Part shown: piece after piece, positions 52,176-55,976 of the stretch | Layout of the letters: each line of letters begins with the position of its first letter | Numbering within the stretch: position 1 is the first letter of the stretch | From: Streptomyces sp. NBC_01775 | GTDB lineage: Bacteria > Actinomycetota > Actinomycetes > Streptomycetales > Streptomycetaceae | Length of the DNA stretch: 64,000 nt | NCBI RefSeq assembly: GCF_035917675.1 | Contig: NZ_CP109104.1 | Location: forward strand, 2,914,001 to 2,978,000 | Reading direction: 5' to 3' | Notes under the pieces: generated by a model | Seen by the model: only the letters and a program-made list of their open reading frames with translations | Told to the model about the DNA's origin: nothing | Databases searched by the model: none | Position numbers and translations under genes: made by a program

Positions 52176-52523
52176 CTATCGGGGTGGGTCCGGGCAGCGT
52201 TCGCCGGGCCGCGGGCACACCAGCGCGACCCGTACAACGAACTGGCCCCGGGAGTAGTATCCCGCGTAGGCGTCCGCGTGCCGGTCCACACTGGCCCGCA
52301 GGTAGTCCAGCTTCCCGTCGAGAGCGCTCGGTGGCGCCTCGCGCACTTCCTGGTCCAGCCACGCGAACACCTCCTCCGGATCCGTGAAGGTGCCCGCGCG
52401 CATGTGCTGAGGCTTGCGGAACCACTGCGAGATCGTGTTCGGCGGCGTCGCGGACTGGGGATCCCGGGCCTCCCTGTCCGGCGGTACCTGCCCACCGGTG
52501 TACGTATACGCGTGCCAGTGCAT
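52176..52523 (-). CDS. Hypothetical protein
   Basis: A 115-residue acidic soluble protein starting MHWHAYTYTGG. The middle (TFTDPEEVFAWLDQEVREA) is helical and looks genuinely coding. The end is Cys/Pro-rich. I recognise no family. It is the last minus-strand gene of the accessory segment that includes the mini-ORF chain, separated from it by a hairpin at 52546-52574. Confidence 0.6.
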   Translation of the reverse strand: MHWHAYTYTGGQVPPDREARDPQSATPPNTISQWFRKPQHMRAGTFTDPEEVFAWLDQEVREAPPSALDGKLDYLRASVDRHADAYAGYYSRGQFVVRVALVCPRPGERCPDPPR

Positions 52524-52585: not shown

Positions 52586-52690
52586 CTATCGGTCGCCGCC
52601 GCAGCCGGTACCGTCGCCGCAGTCGGGCTCGTCAGCGGGTTGGGTAGGCTCGTCGTCCTCGGGATCGACGTGGAGAACCAGTGCGTGCAT
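52586..52690 (-). CDS. 34-residue acidic peptide with Cys/Gly C-terminus
   Basis: An ATG with a very strong AGGAGGAG site five bases away opens a 34-codon frame. The N-terminal half begins MHALVLHVDPEDDEP and the C-terminal part has two Cys residues in a Gly/Thr/Asp context (DCGDGTGCGG). It is too short to be found as a standard ORF. An acidic leader-like half and a Cys-containing core-like half resemble ribosomally made peptide precursors, but no modification enzyme is nearby. I recognise no family. Confidence 0.5.
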   Translation of the reverse strand: MHALVLHVDPEDDEPTQPADEPDCGDGTGCGGDR

Positions 52691-52792
52691 CGTGCTCCTC
52701 CTCTGTTCGGTTTTCTCGGGGACCCGCCTCGGTGCCGCGGCTGTCACGCGATGGAGTGGAAGCCGGTGCGTGCGGCCCGCCCGGGGCGGGGG

Positions 52793-52933
52793 TCAGTTGT
52801 CCTGCCGGCTGTCAGAGGCGTCGGGGCCCACGGGACGGGGGCAGACGCCCCGGCCGGCCAGTTGGCCGGCTGCGGCGAACCTTGGGGACATCGGGCGAGC
52901 GAGCCGCTCCGCGCCGGTGTCCACGTGGTTCAC
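52793..52933 (-). CDS. 46-residue hypothetical peptide, last of the overlapping chain
   Basis: A GTG overlaps the stop of the 28-residue membrane peptide (GTGA). The frame gives MNHVDTGAERLARPMSPRF, then a Gly/Pro/Asp-rich end. There is no membrane segment. The support is the overlap and its place in the chain; the family is unknown. Confidence 0.45.
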   Translation of the reverse strand: MNHVDTGAERLARPMSPRFAAAGQLAGRGVCPRPVGPDASDSRQDN

Positions 52934-53016
52934 CGGCCTGTGATGCCGTAGGTGAGTGCCAGCACCAGGGCCGTGAGGGCGAGGATGTAGAGAGCCTCGC
53001 GACGACGGTGGCTCAT
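52930..53016 (-). CDS. 28-residue single-helix membrane peptide
   Basis: An ATG lies in an ATGA overlap with the upstream 65-residue gene. The peptide is MSHRRREALYILALTALVLA plus eight residues: a basic start and one hydrophobic helix, so it is probably a small inner-membrane protein. It is the fifth member of the chain of four-base overlaps. Confidence 0.5.
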   Translation of the reverse strand: MSHRRREALYILALTALVLALTYGITGR

Positions 53017-53210
53017 GACCGAGCCGAGTTGGTGGGGTGCTTGGCGTCGAGGTGGAGGGCCATGCCGCGTATGAGGATTCGCGCGAGGTCGGTCTCGTCG
53101 CGTCCTTCGGCTGCGCGGATCATGTGCCCGTACTGGTCGCACATCTCGCAGGGGCCCCGGCCACCCTCGTCCCTGCCTGCGCCTGGCTCGGTAGTGACCA
53201 GGCGCATCAC
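53013..53210 (-). CDS. 65-residue hypothetical protein with CxxC
   Basis: A GTG overlaps the stop of the preceding 23-residue frame. The product has a CEMCDQYGHM motif and a helical C-terminal half (DETDLARILIRGMALHLDAKH). The paired Cys and following His could bind a metal. It looks genuinely coding and is the best supported of the tiny genes here. The family is unknown. Confidence 0.6.
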   Translation of the reverse strand: MMRLVTTEPGAGRDEGGRGPCEMCDQYGHMIRAAEGRDETDLARILIRGMALHLDAKHPTNSARS

Positions 53211-53278
53211 AGGGCCGCCGGCCAGCAGCGGGCGGCCACCAGTTCCGGGGCGCGGTGCGGGTCATAGCCAGCGGTCAT
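53207..53278 (-). CDS. 23-residue peptide in the overlapping chain
   Basis: An ATG overlapping the stop of the 112-residue gene (ATGA), with GAGAGGGG upstream, opens MTAGYDPHRAPELVAARCWP plus three residues. Its stop again overlaps the next start. It could be a translated coupling peptide or a functional micropeptide. Confidence 0.4.
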   Translation of the reverse strand: MTAGYDPHRAPELVAARCWPAAL

Positions 53279-53613
53279 GTCCGGCCCCTCTCGACGGCGG
53301 ACGGGCAAGCGCACCGGCCGGTGACGACCACCCACGGCGCTGTCTTGGGCTGCGGCTCCTCACGCCCGGAGACGCGGGGGGTTTGGCCGCATCGTCGGCA
53401 GCGGCCCGCCGCCGCGCGCGCCGCCCGTACGAACACTCCGACATCACGCGGCATCGCGGTCACCCCCTGGGCACAGCGGGGACATTCACACGGCGGGTAC
53501 TCCAGCGGACGGCTGAGAGGCTGGGGCGCCTTGTCCTCGCCCTCCCGGACGGTGCGCCGTCGGCCCCAGGTGCAGTCGGAATCGCGGGATACGCGGATGG
53601 TCATTGTGGTCAC
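53275..53613 (-). CDS. Small Cys-rich, probably zinc-binding protein
   Basis: A GTG inside the stop overlap of the 27-residue frame gives 112 residues (an ATG three codons later is also possible). The protein has Cys clusters PCECPRCAQG, GRCRRCGQTP and GRCACPS, a zinc-ribbon-like arrangement, in an Arg-rich background suited to nucleic acid binding. I do not recognise the family. Confidence 0.55.
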   Translation of the reverse strand: MTTMTIRVSRDSDCTWGRRRTVREGEDKAPQPLSRPLEYPPCECPRCAQGVTAMPRDVGVFVRAARAAAGRCRRCGQTPRVSGREEPQPKTAPWVVVTGRCACPSAVERGRT

Positions 53614-53693
53614 GGCCGCAACCCCGGCACAGGGCGGCTGCGCGCGGCGGCGTAGGCGGCTCCCTCGCCGGAGCCGGTCGTCAGTGTCTGCAT
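53610..53693 (-). CDS. 27-residue peptide, first of the overlapping chain
   Basis: An ATG with GAGGA eight bases upstream opens MQTLTTGSGEGAAYAAARSR plus seven residues (ending PGLRP). It starts 150 bases downstream of the XRE-TPR regulator gene on the same strand and is the first of six frames joined by four-base overlaps. The short length and position allow the idea of a leader or signalling peptide, without direct evidence. Confidence 0.45.
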   Translation of the reverse strand: MQTLTTGSGEGAAYAAARSRPVPGLRP

Positions 53694-53697
53694 GGAG

Positions 53698-53766
53698 CTG
53701 TCCTCACTGGGATGAGCGGCACCGGATCCTGAGGGGATGACCGAAGCCGCCGGTCGGTGAGGACAG
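53698..53766. promoter_or_regulatory. Inverted repeat in the leader of the mini-ORF chain
   Basis: CTGTCCTCAC at 53698-53707 and GTGAGGACAG at 53757-53766 are exact complements ten bases long, 49 bases apart. One arm overlaps the ribosome site of the first mini-ORF, so the repeat could control its translation as RNA or bind the adjacent regulator as DNA. Confidence 0.4.
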
Positions 53767-53842
53767 TAGGAGTGCGGAACCTTCCGCCCCAGGGACGGCC
53801 CGCCCTATTTCGCAGCCTCGCTGGGACGCCTTGTCCTAGCTG

Positions 53843-55069
53843 TCAGCCGTCCAGGTGAAGCCTGTTGGCCAACTCCGTGACGGGACTGCGCCGACGGCGC
53901 TCCCTCGACCGAAGCTCCGCGACCAGGCGCCGCGAGGTGCCGTGGTAACGCATCCATTCCGGCGCGTCGTCCTCGGCCTTCAACAACGCCACCGCGGCCC
54001 GGCCGTCCTGGCCGATGTCCGCATGGGCCTGCGCCCGGTCCACTTGAAAGCGCGCCCGCCAGGTCGGTGGCAGCGTCTCCAGACGCGGAACCGTGCGGGC
54101 TGCCTCGATCGCCTCCGCGCTCTTGCCCATCTCCACCAGGAAGTTCACGCGCGCCACGCCCGCGTTGGCCGGCCCGAAGGGAGTCGCGTAATCGAGCCGG
54201 TCCGTGCCGAGACCGGCTGCCGCGGCCGAGGCCATCCGCAACAGCTCTTCGACGCGGTCGTACTGGGCCTCGCCCTGACGGACGGTCGCTGTCGCCGCGC
54301 GGAGCATCAGGATCCCCCAGAGGGAGAGGGCAAGCGGCGGGGAGCGGAAGCCGGGTTCGGCGGACTCAGCGGTGGCGAGTGCCACGCGCGCCGCGTCCTG
54401 CAACCGCCCCTGCTTGGTGAGAATCCAGGCGAGAGTGGACGCGCCGACGGTCTCCAGATGAGGATCGTCCGAGGACCGGGCCGCCACGGTGGCGCGCTCT
54501 ATCGCCGTGAATGCGGCATCTTCCTTGCCCAACGCTGTCAAAGTGGTCGCCGCGACCTGATATGCCTCCGCGAGCACCGCGTTGGCCGCTGCTTGGTCCG
54601 CCCCGCTGTGATGGCGTACGGCAGCACGGGCATCGCGGATAAGTTGCGGGAGGACAGCGCCGACCTGCCCGACGCGGCCTTCCCGCCGAATGTGTTCCGT
54701 TGAACGCAACGCGGCCCGCAGTGCCCCGATGGTGGGCGGCGGATCCTCCGGGTCGTCGTCCTCCGCCAGCAGATCGGAGACGGGCGAAACCGCCTGCCGC
54801 AGGAGCAGGAGACTGGGCTCTTCCCGCCCTTCGGGAGACGGTTCGAAGACAGCCGGTGCTCCGACGAGTACGGAAACCTCGACGTCGAGGGCCTGCGCCA
54901 GAGCGTTCAGCGTGGCCATCCGCGCGGTGAGGCGCCGGTTCTGCTCCAGCTTCCTGACAACATCGACCGATACACCCGCCCGAGCGGCCATCTGCTCCTG
55001 CGTCAGGCCACGCTGCTCTCGGAGCCGTCCGATCCGATCGCCGATCGTGGTCCCGAACATGTGCGTCAT
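53843..55069 (-). CDS. XRE family regulator with TPR-like C-terminal domain
   Basis: A 408-residue cytoplasmic protein. Residues 10-65 are an XRE helix-turn-helix (IGDRIGRLREQRGLTQEQMA and ARAGVSVDVVRKLEQNRR). The remaining 330 residues are all-helical, with repeated Ala/Leu patterns of tetratricopeptide type (HLETVGASTLAWILTKQGRL, RARFQVDRAQAHADIGQDG). This architecture is shared with RRNPP-like peptide-responsive regulators and with many streptomycete regulators of unknown ligand. I chose the ATG at 55069; 55060 is possible. The mini-ORF chain follows on the same strand, and a broken methyltransferase gene is divergent. Confidence 0.85.
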   Translation of the reverse strand: MTHMFGTTIGDRIGRLREQRGLTQEQMAARAGVSVDVVRKLEQNRRLTARMATLNALAQALDVEVSVLVGAPAVFEPSPEGREEPSLLLLRQAVSPVSDLLAEDDDPEDPPPTIGALRAALRSTEHIRREGRVGQVGAVLPQLIRDARAAVRHHSGADQAAANAVLAEAYQVAATTLTALGKEDAAFTAIERATVAARSSDDPHLETVGASTLAWILTKQGRLQDAARVALATAESAEPGFRSPPLALSLWGILMLRAATATVRQGEAQYDRVEELLRMASAAAAGLGTDRLDYATPFGPANAGVARVNFLVEMGKSAEAIEAARTVPRLETLPPTWRARFQVDRAQAHADIGQDGRAAVALLKAEDDAPEWMRYHGTSRRLVAELRSRERRRRSPVTELANRLHLDG

Positions 55070-55176
55070 GACTACCCCCGCCAGGTGGATACCCGCCATC
55101 CACGTTACGCCGGTTCGCCGGAGCCTGTCAGATACGGGCTGACGTGATCCGACCACTGGTCGGCAGAATGCTCCGC

Positions 55177-55976
55177 ATGGACATCGCACCCGAGGTCATG
55201 GCCTTCTACGCGTCCACCATCGACGAGTCCCAGCGCCTGACGATGTCGGCCGACGGCGCACTTGAGCTGCTTCGCACGCAAGAGCTGCTGCGCCGCTACC
55301 TCCCGCCCGCGTCCTGGATGTCGGTGGCGGCCCCGGTGCGCATGCCAGGTGGCTGATCGAGGACGGCTACGCCGTGCACGTCGTGGACCCGGTGCCCCGG
55401 CATGTCGATGCCGCGCGACGCGTCGCGACCTCGGCCGAGGTGGGCGATGCCCGCGATCTGAACCTCAGCGACGGTGACTTCGACGTGGTACTGGTCCTCG
55501 GCCCGCTCTACCACCTGCTGGAGCGTGCCGAGCGGGACCGGGCGCTCGCCGAGGCATACCGGGTGGTGCGGCCGGGGGGCCTGGTGGCCGCGGCGGGCAT
55601 CAACCGGTACGCGTCCCTGTTCGAGCACACGGCGTTCGCGCACCTCTACAAGGACAGCGTCCGGGAGAGCATCGAGGGCATCCTGCGCAGCCAGGTCCAC
55701 GACGGGAAGAAGTCGTTCACCGCGGCGTACTTCCACAGCGGTGCCGAGCTGCGCGACGAGGTGGCCGAGGCCGGGTTCGAGGATGCGGAGGTCTTTGGAA
55801 TCGAGGGGCCGGCATGGGGGATGCTCAAGGCGACCGAGCAGTACACGAAGGGGTCGGTTGCGGGATCCGATCTGTTCGAGTCCGCGCTGACGGCCGCCCG
55901 GCTGGCCGAGCCGTACCCGGAACTGCTCGCCGCCAGCTCACACATGCTCGCCGTCGGCTGGCGCCCGGAGGCATGA
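55177..55976 (+). pseudogene. Class I SAM-dependent methyltransferase, frameshifted
   Basis: The ATG at 55177 starts a normal N-terminus (GALELLRTQELLRRYLPPA). At about 55305 the frame shifts. The bases that follow read, in the other frame, VLDVGGGPGAHARWLIEDG, exactly the SAM-binding motif I that should come next, and continue with VVDPVPRHV, FDVVLVLGPLYHLL and YRVVRPGGLVAAAGINR to a stop at 55976. In the first frame translation ends after the shift, at PGG. Loss of one (or four) bases explains this. Joined together the protein would be about 266 residues. A sequencing error cannot be excluded. Confidence 0.85.

Follow-up and report, generated by a model that had tools for sequence, protein, structure and literature searches.

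A probable reduced copy of a regulator-linked operon of very small proteins in Streptomyces sp. NBC_01775

Does a run of six minute, overlapping frames in a Streptomyces genome represent a genuine operon and, if so, to what kind of system does it belong? The question is raised by positions 52,586 to 53,693 of a 64,000-nucleotide stretch of Streptomyces sp. NBC_01775 (NZ_CP109104.1, positions 2,914,001 to 2,978,000; hereafter the window), in which a first-pass annotation had described six frames joined by five successive four-base overlaps and a trailing 34-aa frame. All of them are present exactly as described. On the minus strand, frames of 27 aa (53610-53693), 112 aa (53275-53613, hereafter B112), 23 aa (53207-53278), 65 aa (53013-53210), 28 aa (52930-53016) and 46 aa (52793-52933) follow one another with the overlaps GTGA, ATGA, GTGA, ATGA and GTGA, and the frame of the 34-aa peptide GAGGAGGAG (52586-52690) lies 3' of this chain on the same strand. 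Two further minus-strand features had been overlooked: an XRE-type HTH regulator upstream of the chain (53843-55189, 448 aa as called), from which an intergenic stretch (53694-53842) leads to the operon, and a 115-aa frame, which we name protein I (52176-52523), the partner gene of the 34-mer.

An important point is whether the overlaps themselves constitute evidence. The earlier view that five in a row are unlikely by chance fails: with a chain defined as six or more frames, each 20 aa or longer, linked by ATGA or GTGA, both strands counted, chains were present in 62 of 100 first-order Markov windows of like composition (mean 1.14 per window) and in 77 of 100 second-order windows (mean 1.9), and the real window holds one. 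When TTG starts were allowed, the mean number of chains per window was 2.3 (first order) and 8.9 (third order) in 60 random windows each. For the exact 1108-bp stretch on one strand the chain frequency was 0.001 in 3000 samples, a figure that refers to a place picked after the fact. Because such chains commonly arise in random windows, the overlaps alone prove nothing, and four-base overlap chains in GC-rich DNA are in general weak evidence on their own. The recurrence of the overlap junctions at homologous places, both in paralogues and in other species, is stronger evidence than the chance count.

Where, then, do similar sets of frames occur? The fullest operon order found is XRE, A, B1 (CxCxxC), B2 (zinc-ribbon-like), C, D, E (CxxC...H..KH), F (one helix), G and H. 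The genome itself (9.3 Mb, two contigs) holds five further copies or part-copies of the operon: the 65-aa E has four more matches at E < 1e-4, one of them on the second contig, and the fifth further copy, L034 (loci carry L numbers), was reached via a search with C. In L034, A to C are run together and no convincing E or F is seen; E of L016 lacks any in-frame start codon (ATG, GTG, TTG or CTG) ahead of its match; and F of L014 is cut short. In the genus, alignment searches (own genome included) placed A at 15 sites in 4 of 199 genomes (threshold 1e-6) and B in 51 of the 199 (threshold 1e-5), many of the B matches being to B1 only and some crossing stops; C was detected in 5 of 392 genomes at 1e-3, with an alignment (A4) whose window row is misaligned at its end. 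A further alignment, A2, has an N-terminal overhang in its L014 row. Single-sequence searches with E found it in 5 of 100 relatives (threshold 0.01) and in 4 of 295 (threshold 0.001), own genome included; by such searches the chain looked almost absent, and alignments reached further. A DNA search of 391 other genomes of the genus revealed nothing close to a copy of the entire locus; the matches at L009, L010, L012, L017, L018 and L019 are short (up to 66 bp), those of L012, L017 and L019 lying inside E. In a large protein set B112 had no match and C had four, itself included, one with the UniRef name 'DUF3349 domain-containing protein'. The A profile selected 40 proteins (own included) among 7993 candidates scored, the named ones being 'hypothetical protein' or 'uncharacterized protein' of Streptomyces species with no Pfam domains; A had no match in phage or plasmid records.

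In all seven named loci A overlaps B1 by GTGA or ATGA; C comes after A/B1 in six of them (in L113 as a 22-residue piece) and E is present in five. The order A-B1-B2-C-E was found in S. sp. AA1529 (L114), S. qinglanensis (L117, L119) and S. spirodelae (L118). In S. diacarni L116 the run is A, B1, B2 and E, A overlapping B1 and B2 overlapping E; H comes further along, and no C or D was found there. The window has the A-B1-B2-C-E order with stop/start overlaps as well, A and C being stubs and B1-B2 being fused. The claim of an operon of very small overlapping frames is thus upheld on other grounds than those first given, with similar sets, in the same order and with overlapping starts and stops, in other Streptomyces.

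The reading of the six frames as six genes has to be revised, since the 27-mer and the 23-mer are remnants of A and C and the 112-mer is two genes fused. The window holds a stub of A, a B1-B2 fusion, a stub of C, no D, a whole E (the 65-aa frame) and F (the 28-aa frame), and a diverged G (the 46-aa frame); A and C are full length elsewhere. The 27-mer is A without its first ~68 codons and with the last ~19 retained, and the blastn match begins at window 53670, against codon ~68 of L015 A. Its likeness to L014 A, over 17 residues, was equalled by 0 of 500 shuffles, and the protein match to L015 A was not significant (186 of 500 as good). In B112, B1 (CxCxxC, MTIRVSRD...TW) is joined in frame to the zinc-ribbon-like B2. 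The two are separate, overlapping genes in L014, L015 and S. diacarni L116, and the fusion is also seen in L037, whose protein has seven Cys in common with B112. The structure model of B112 was unusable (pLDDT 48.9). The 23-mer is protein C minus ~90 middle codons. Window 53670-53248 matches L015 3521-3935 and window 53246-53203 matches L015 4210-4253, so that matches abutting in the window (53248/53246) are 275 bp apart in L015, with the gap within gene C. The second match is 44 bp long (E 7e-4 against L015 and 1.6e-5 against L013), and the N-terminal protein match of the 23-mer was equalled by 0 of 500 shuffles. The length of C is 109-134 aa in five other-genome loci and 77 aa in S. axinellae. 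The next DNA match, window 53143 to L015 4665, skips D.

The Cys-rich zinc-ribbon-like protein, the CxxC protein and the one-helix peptide proposed from the letters alone are borne out. E contains CxxC ... H(x4)H, and its PC..C, Y, MIR, H and AKH are retained in L013, L014 and L015; the match to S. diacarni E was equalled by 0 of 2000 shuffles. The E model (pLDDT block means 95-98 for residues 21-50, no PDB match at E <= 0.001) predicts a helical hairpin in which the CxxC and H/KH ends could meet at a putative metal site; the motifs are described here as a probable one. F consists of one hydrophobic helix with a basic N-terminus. It was found at five own-genome places (E <= 0.05) and was absent at the same threshold from the other 198 genus genomes searched; an isolated F-like frame, L107, is among the finds of the F search. 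The F tail ALTYGI.GR is retained in the window, L015 and L016 and missing in L014, and in the plasmid copy an F-like segment is the end of a 159-aa protein. G is the diverged equivalent of a ~50-aa frame after F in L015, with a protein match equalled by 9 of 500 shuffles; the DNA match, which extends from G through the following leader, was equalled by 0 of 300 shuffles. Ribosome sites were recognized by eye upstream of the A start (GAGGA) and of the C start (GAGAGGGG); none was seen at F, and E is less clearly without one. Lacking such sites, E and F probably depend on translational coupling, which works best at short distance (PMC12548453).

Another key question is whether the products are still made or whether the operon copy is dead and decaying, its mini-frames being productless leftovers with a constraint inherited from before its death. 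Such decay would account for the cut A and C, the missing D and the lost B1-B2 stop; the copies L034, L016 and L014 are visibly broken, and the frequency of long chance chains in such DNA points the same way. The state of the remaining frames argues for retention: apart from the B1-B2 fusion, B, E and F are without stop or frameshift, and the seven Cys that B112 has in common with L037 persist, as do the F helix and, in E, the CxxC and H/KH motifs. The dN/dS comparison proposed in the first-pass annotation placed all 12 window pairs below 1 (0.25-0.72). Against paralogues, the window values were 0.41-0.42 for B1 (two pairs), 0.32-0.46 for B2 (four pairs) and 0.50-0.72 for E (three pairs), and for F they were 0.25-0.27 to L014/L015 and 0.59 to L016; since each pairwise value combines both branches and synonymous sites are nearly saturated, a recent loss in the window could be masked in these figures. 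Likewise, pN/pS was below 1 in 12 of 12 window pairs of B1, B2, E and F; its bootstrap interval stayed below 1 in eight of them (B2 4/4, B1 1/2, E 1/3, F 2/3) and reached above 1 in the other four. Non-window pairs were often weaker, F of L015/L016 and L016/L014 being above 1. In the close pair L096/L038, the mismatches by codon position were 0,0,5 for A, 13,3,17 for C, 4,3,7 for E and 1,5,2 for B2, the last without third-position excess. The constraint on the small proteins thus appears moderate and uneven, and the purifying selection in the pairs compared suggests that the B, E and F proteins are probably made. A dead copy is made slightly less likely still by the conservation of the 34-mer discussed below, and we consider it quite unlikely.

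Is the upstream regulator part of the operon? The gene at 53843-55189 matches PF13560 (E 1.5e-10) and HTH_3 (PF01381, E 2.4e-10), both above cut-off, and its true start probably lies inside the called 448-aa frame. A TPR_8 match (E 0.039) stays below the cut-off (14.6 bits vs 25.7), and Pfam gave no DUF5753 match. Along most of its length the protein is homologous (27-31%) to the regulators that precede L014, L015, L034 and the plasmid locus L020, identities across the set being 25-45%, and the XRE-to-A spacing in the window, L014, L015 and L034 is only ~100-180 bp. An XRE gene lies upstream of A on the same strand at 10 of the 15 places, none having been found upstream on that strand at five; for the seven named loci, whose genomes are partly the same, the figures are three with and four without. 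At 53822-53838, between the regulator and the 27-mer, lies TAGGACAAGGCGTCCCA, a weak operator candidate: at up to one mismatch the pattern has one own-genome occurrence, as does the reversed control pattern. Five promoter pairs were tested, and for L015/L034 and L014/L096, those with the most similar regulators, 0 of 1000 shuffles were as good in each case. The window promoter had no match to L015 (349 of 1000 as good) or L020 (755 of 1000) and a weak one to L097 (52 of 1000). This tracking of promoter likeness with regulator likeness fits control by the adjacent regulator. The surroundings of some copies are also alike: directly before the XRE gene at L014 and L096, which belong to different genomes, there is a similar gene that we take to be HAD-phosphatase-like, and the L038 and L096 copies both adjoin what is presumably an argininosuccinate synthase gene, perhaps a shared insertion place.

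The reading that we favour, with a probability of about 0.7, is that the locus represents a reduced, probably still translated copy of a multi-copy, regulator-linked Streptomyces operon. An XRE-type regulator stands before a run of the small proteins A, B1, B2, C, D and E, together with small peptides of membrane or acidic type, and the chain would be translated as a coupled series through its stop/start overlaps; in the window lineage, A and C have lost most of their length and become in-frame stubs, B1 and B2 have fused and D has been lost. The data show the homology, the gene order, the overlaps, the deletions and a constraint on average; the statements on translation of the stubs and on regulation that follow go beyond them. 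It is rather likely that the regulator controls the operon, and the odds are about even that the A and C stubs are translated and pass ribosomes on. More tentatively, the small proteins might modulate the output or targets of the regulator, by analogy with the partner proteins of other Streptomyces XRE modules.

What is the 34-residue peptide that follows the chain? It is acidic, has a strong ribosome site and ends in CGDGTGCGG. By tblastn it matched L042 (5e-9) and L043 (7e-7), and a DNA search gave short matches within its coding part in two other genomes. The matching peptides end in CGRGDGCGRS and CGGGSGCQR, and each is followed by a relative of protein I; for the I relatives of L042 and L043, 0 of 500 shuffles were as good. 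A search built on four aligned I proteins found relatives in 75 of 199 genus genomes (own included); for I itself, neither Pfam nor NCBIfam gave a match at E <= 1. In 14 of 30 fetched loci the 450 bp before I encode an acidic peptide with a CGxGxGC tail, a count that includes the window (L121) and the search-building loci L120 and L122, leaving 11 independent ones, and that uses a tail pattern fixed after the peptides had been seen. No tailed peptide occurred among the 30 in any of four controls (450-bp antisense; 510 bp before, both strands; the stretch after), and a looser pattern gave 15 loci, one of which (L123) is apparently spurious. The codon test was modest: with a median of 0.73, pN/pS fell below 1 in 79 of the 90 pairs for which it was defined, and among window pairs in 11 of 13. 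The separate 34-residue peptide postulated in the first-pass annotation is accordingly a conserved gene and a member of a widespread, unnamed peptide family. Its own genome holds no paralogue. We also considered it as a remnant of H and rejected this: the match to H was not significant (96 of 500 shuffles as good), and peptides sharing its tail precede relatives of I in other loci.

The 34-mer and I form a second conserved unit, which elsewhere also lies beside B1-type peptides and XRE regulators. Among 31 genomes holding both B1 and I (69 B1 places outside the own genome, 121 I places), 11 have a pair within 5 kb, on the same strand, B1 first and 393-595 bp apart; L138 and L139 have B1, the peptide and I one after another, just as the window does. 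Eleven of the 30 I loci, the window among them, have an XRE or DUF5753 regulator upstream in the same orientation, and one more has it on the opposite strand. L042 has the order HTH-DUF5753 regulator, 69-aa CxxC protein, 60-aa B1-like protein (with a four-base overlap onto the CxxC protein), peptide and I. Near the unit in L042, L138, L139 and L143 there is a ~175-aa protein (RRARIVSEP...GE.VRWLPR) that we take to be DUF6879-like, and near that of L139 a frame that is presumably DUF397-like. The leader before the 34-mer (window 52687-52795) is 78% identical over 111 bp to L041 (G272) 1501-1611, where it leads to a different frame, of 33 aa, that has a close relative of I after it.

Two bolder readings go beyond the favoured one, and jointly we regard them as rather unlikely. 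In the first, the 34-mer and I may represent a widespread peptide-plus-partner system with a CGxGDGCGR-type tail under an XRE regulator, the peptide being metal-binding, modified or signalling, I being its partner, and both being teamed here with the zinc-type proteins B1, B2 and E. Inspection of seven loci by eye revealed no modifying enzyme next to the peptide, so a modified peptide is without a supporting enzyme. A peptide with a fixed Cys tail is a small, clear target that deserves its own study. In the second, the 27- and 23-codon stubs would have been retained as ribosome relays. Frame continuity has been kept in the window A and C cuts, the window D loss, the L014 loss of C and D, L015 without the 87-aa gene and the short C of P0004, and has not been kept in L016 E, the 3' part of L034 and L014 F. 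Copies at several stages of shrinkage offer a testbed for short leftover frames as translational couplers.

Does the operon resemble any known system? The seven small window frames had no Pfam or NCBIfam match at E <= 1, the relatives of A, B1, B2, C, D and H had only sub-threshold matches to other families and none to DUF397, and the small proteins tested had no PHROGs match. The sub-threshold matches of the small proteins included DUF3752 (0.05), DUF7792 (0.033), Phage_gene29 (0.0054), a Cas3-extension model (0.001, L039 C), Antimicrobial25 (0.0038) and MoaE (0.0048). The claim that nothing here resembles a known system holds to the extent that no curated family searched was matched. Nearest in layout are the XRE-DUF397 pairs and the whiJ/bldB/abaA clusters. 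The former (Scr1/Scr2 and relatives) likewise have an XRE regulator followed by small proteins and are multi-copy in Streptomyces (PMC10364602, PMC6262351), whereas the window frames or relatives scanned are without DUF397 and the window has zinc-type-motif proteins with overlaps. The latter, compared by layout and description, are paralogous regulator-plus-small-protein sets (PMC10294661); the plasmid copy of our operon has an HATPase_c_2 protein and relatives of the 34-mer lie near HTH-DUF5753 regulators, but in the window, L014, L015 and L034 there is no room for a further gene between XRE and A, and the window regulator had no DUF5753 match. In PMC8939145, HTH-DUF5753 and histidine-kinase-like ATPase genes are linked to ATP-grasp peptide loci of actinobacteria. 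Among the matches listed, the open-licence literature contained no account of the operon or the peptide. The operon family is probably an undescribed one, in which an XRE regulator precedes tiny Streptomyces proteins that probably bind zinc; the libraries searched have no curated model for it or for the Cys-tailed peptide family beside it.

Could the locus instead be a toxin-antitoxin or defence module carried on mobile elements, with F or a zinc protein as the toxin? Some copies are on plasmids, L016 lies downstream of a phage-integrase gene and its F is immediately followed by an OrfB_IS605 piece (L005 602-1015 and 1700-1918), and the regulator HTH resembles the HTH parts of several PADLOC models. 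Seven other proteins, however, had no match in the PADLOC scan, which covered the set other than F, G and the peptides and lends a defence module no support; several copies have lost single components; and tests of fourteen XRE-DUF397 pairs described in PMC10364602 showed no toxin-antitoxin behaviour. We therefore regard such a module as very improbable. Least probable of all is RRNPP-like signalling with the HTH regulator as receptor and F (basic start, hydrophobic core, TYGI.GR tail) or the 34-mer as pro-peptide: short peptides do lie downstream of an HTH protein and the F tail is retained in three copies, but F occurs in 1 of 199 genomes, the own one, as against 4 of 199 for A with XRE beside A in 10 of 15 places, which leaves F as a pheromone without support, its tail is missing in L014 and its plasmid counterpart ends a larger protein, the TPR match is sub-threshold only, and the 34-mer has no hydrophobic export segment by eye.

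Unnamed sets on plasmids of three other Streptomyces strains are also among the closest known relatives of the operon. That of NBC_01187 has B2 (unannotated), C, D and E in the same order, that of NBC_01186 has D and E accessions in common with it, and that of NBC_01795 has C and E matches only; they differ in a full-length C and D, an extra 87-aa gene and the 159-aa protein in place of F. One plasmid carries E four times, as two genes each in inverted duplicate, and the B1-type peptide (MTIRVSRD..TW...PPC.CPRC) lies unannotated at two plasmid places, NZ_CP109380.1 and NZ_CP108819.1. In L013, on the second contig of the own genome (presumably a plasmid), C, D and E translate as on the NBC_01187 plasmid (L020, NZ_CP108583.1), an identity that suggests recent transfer.
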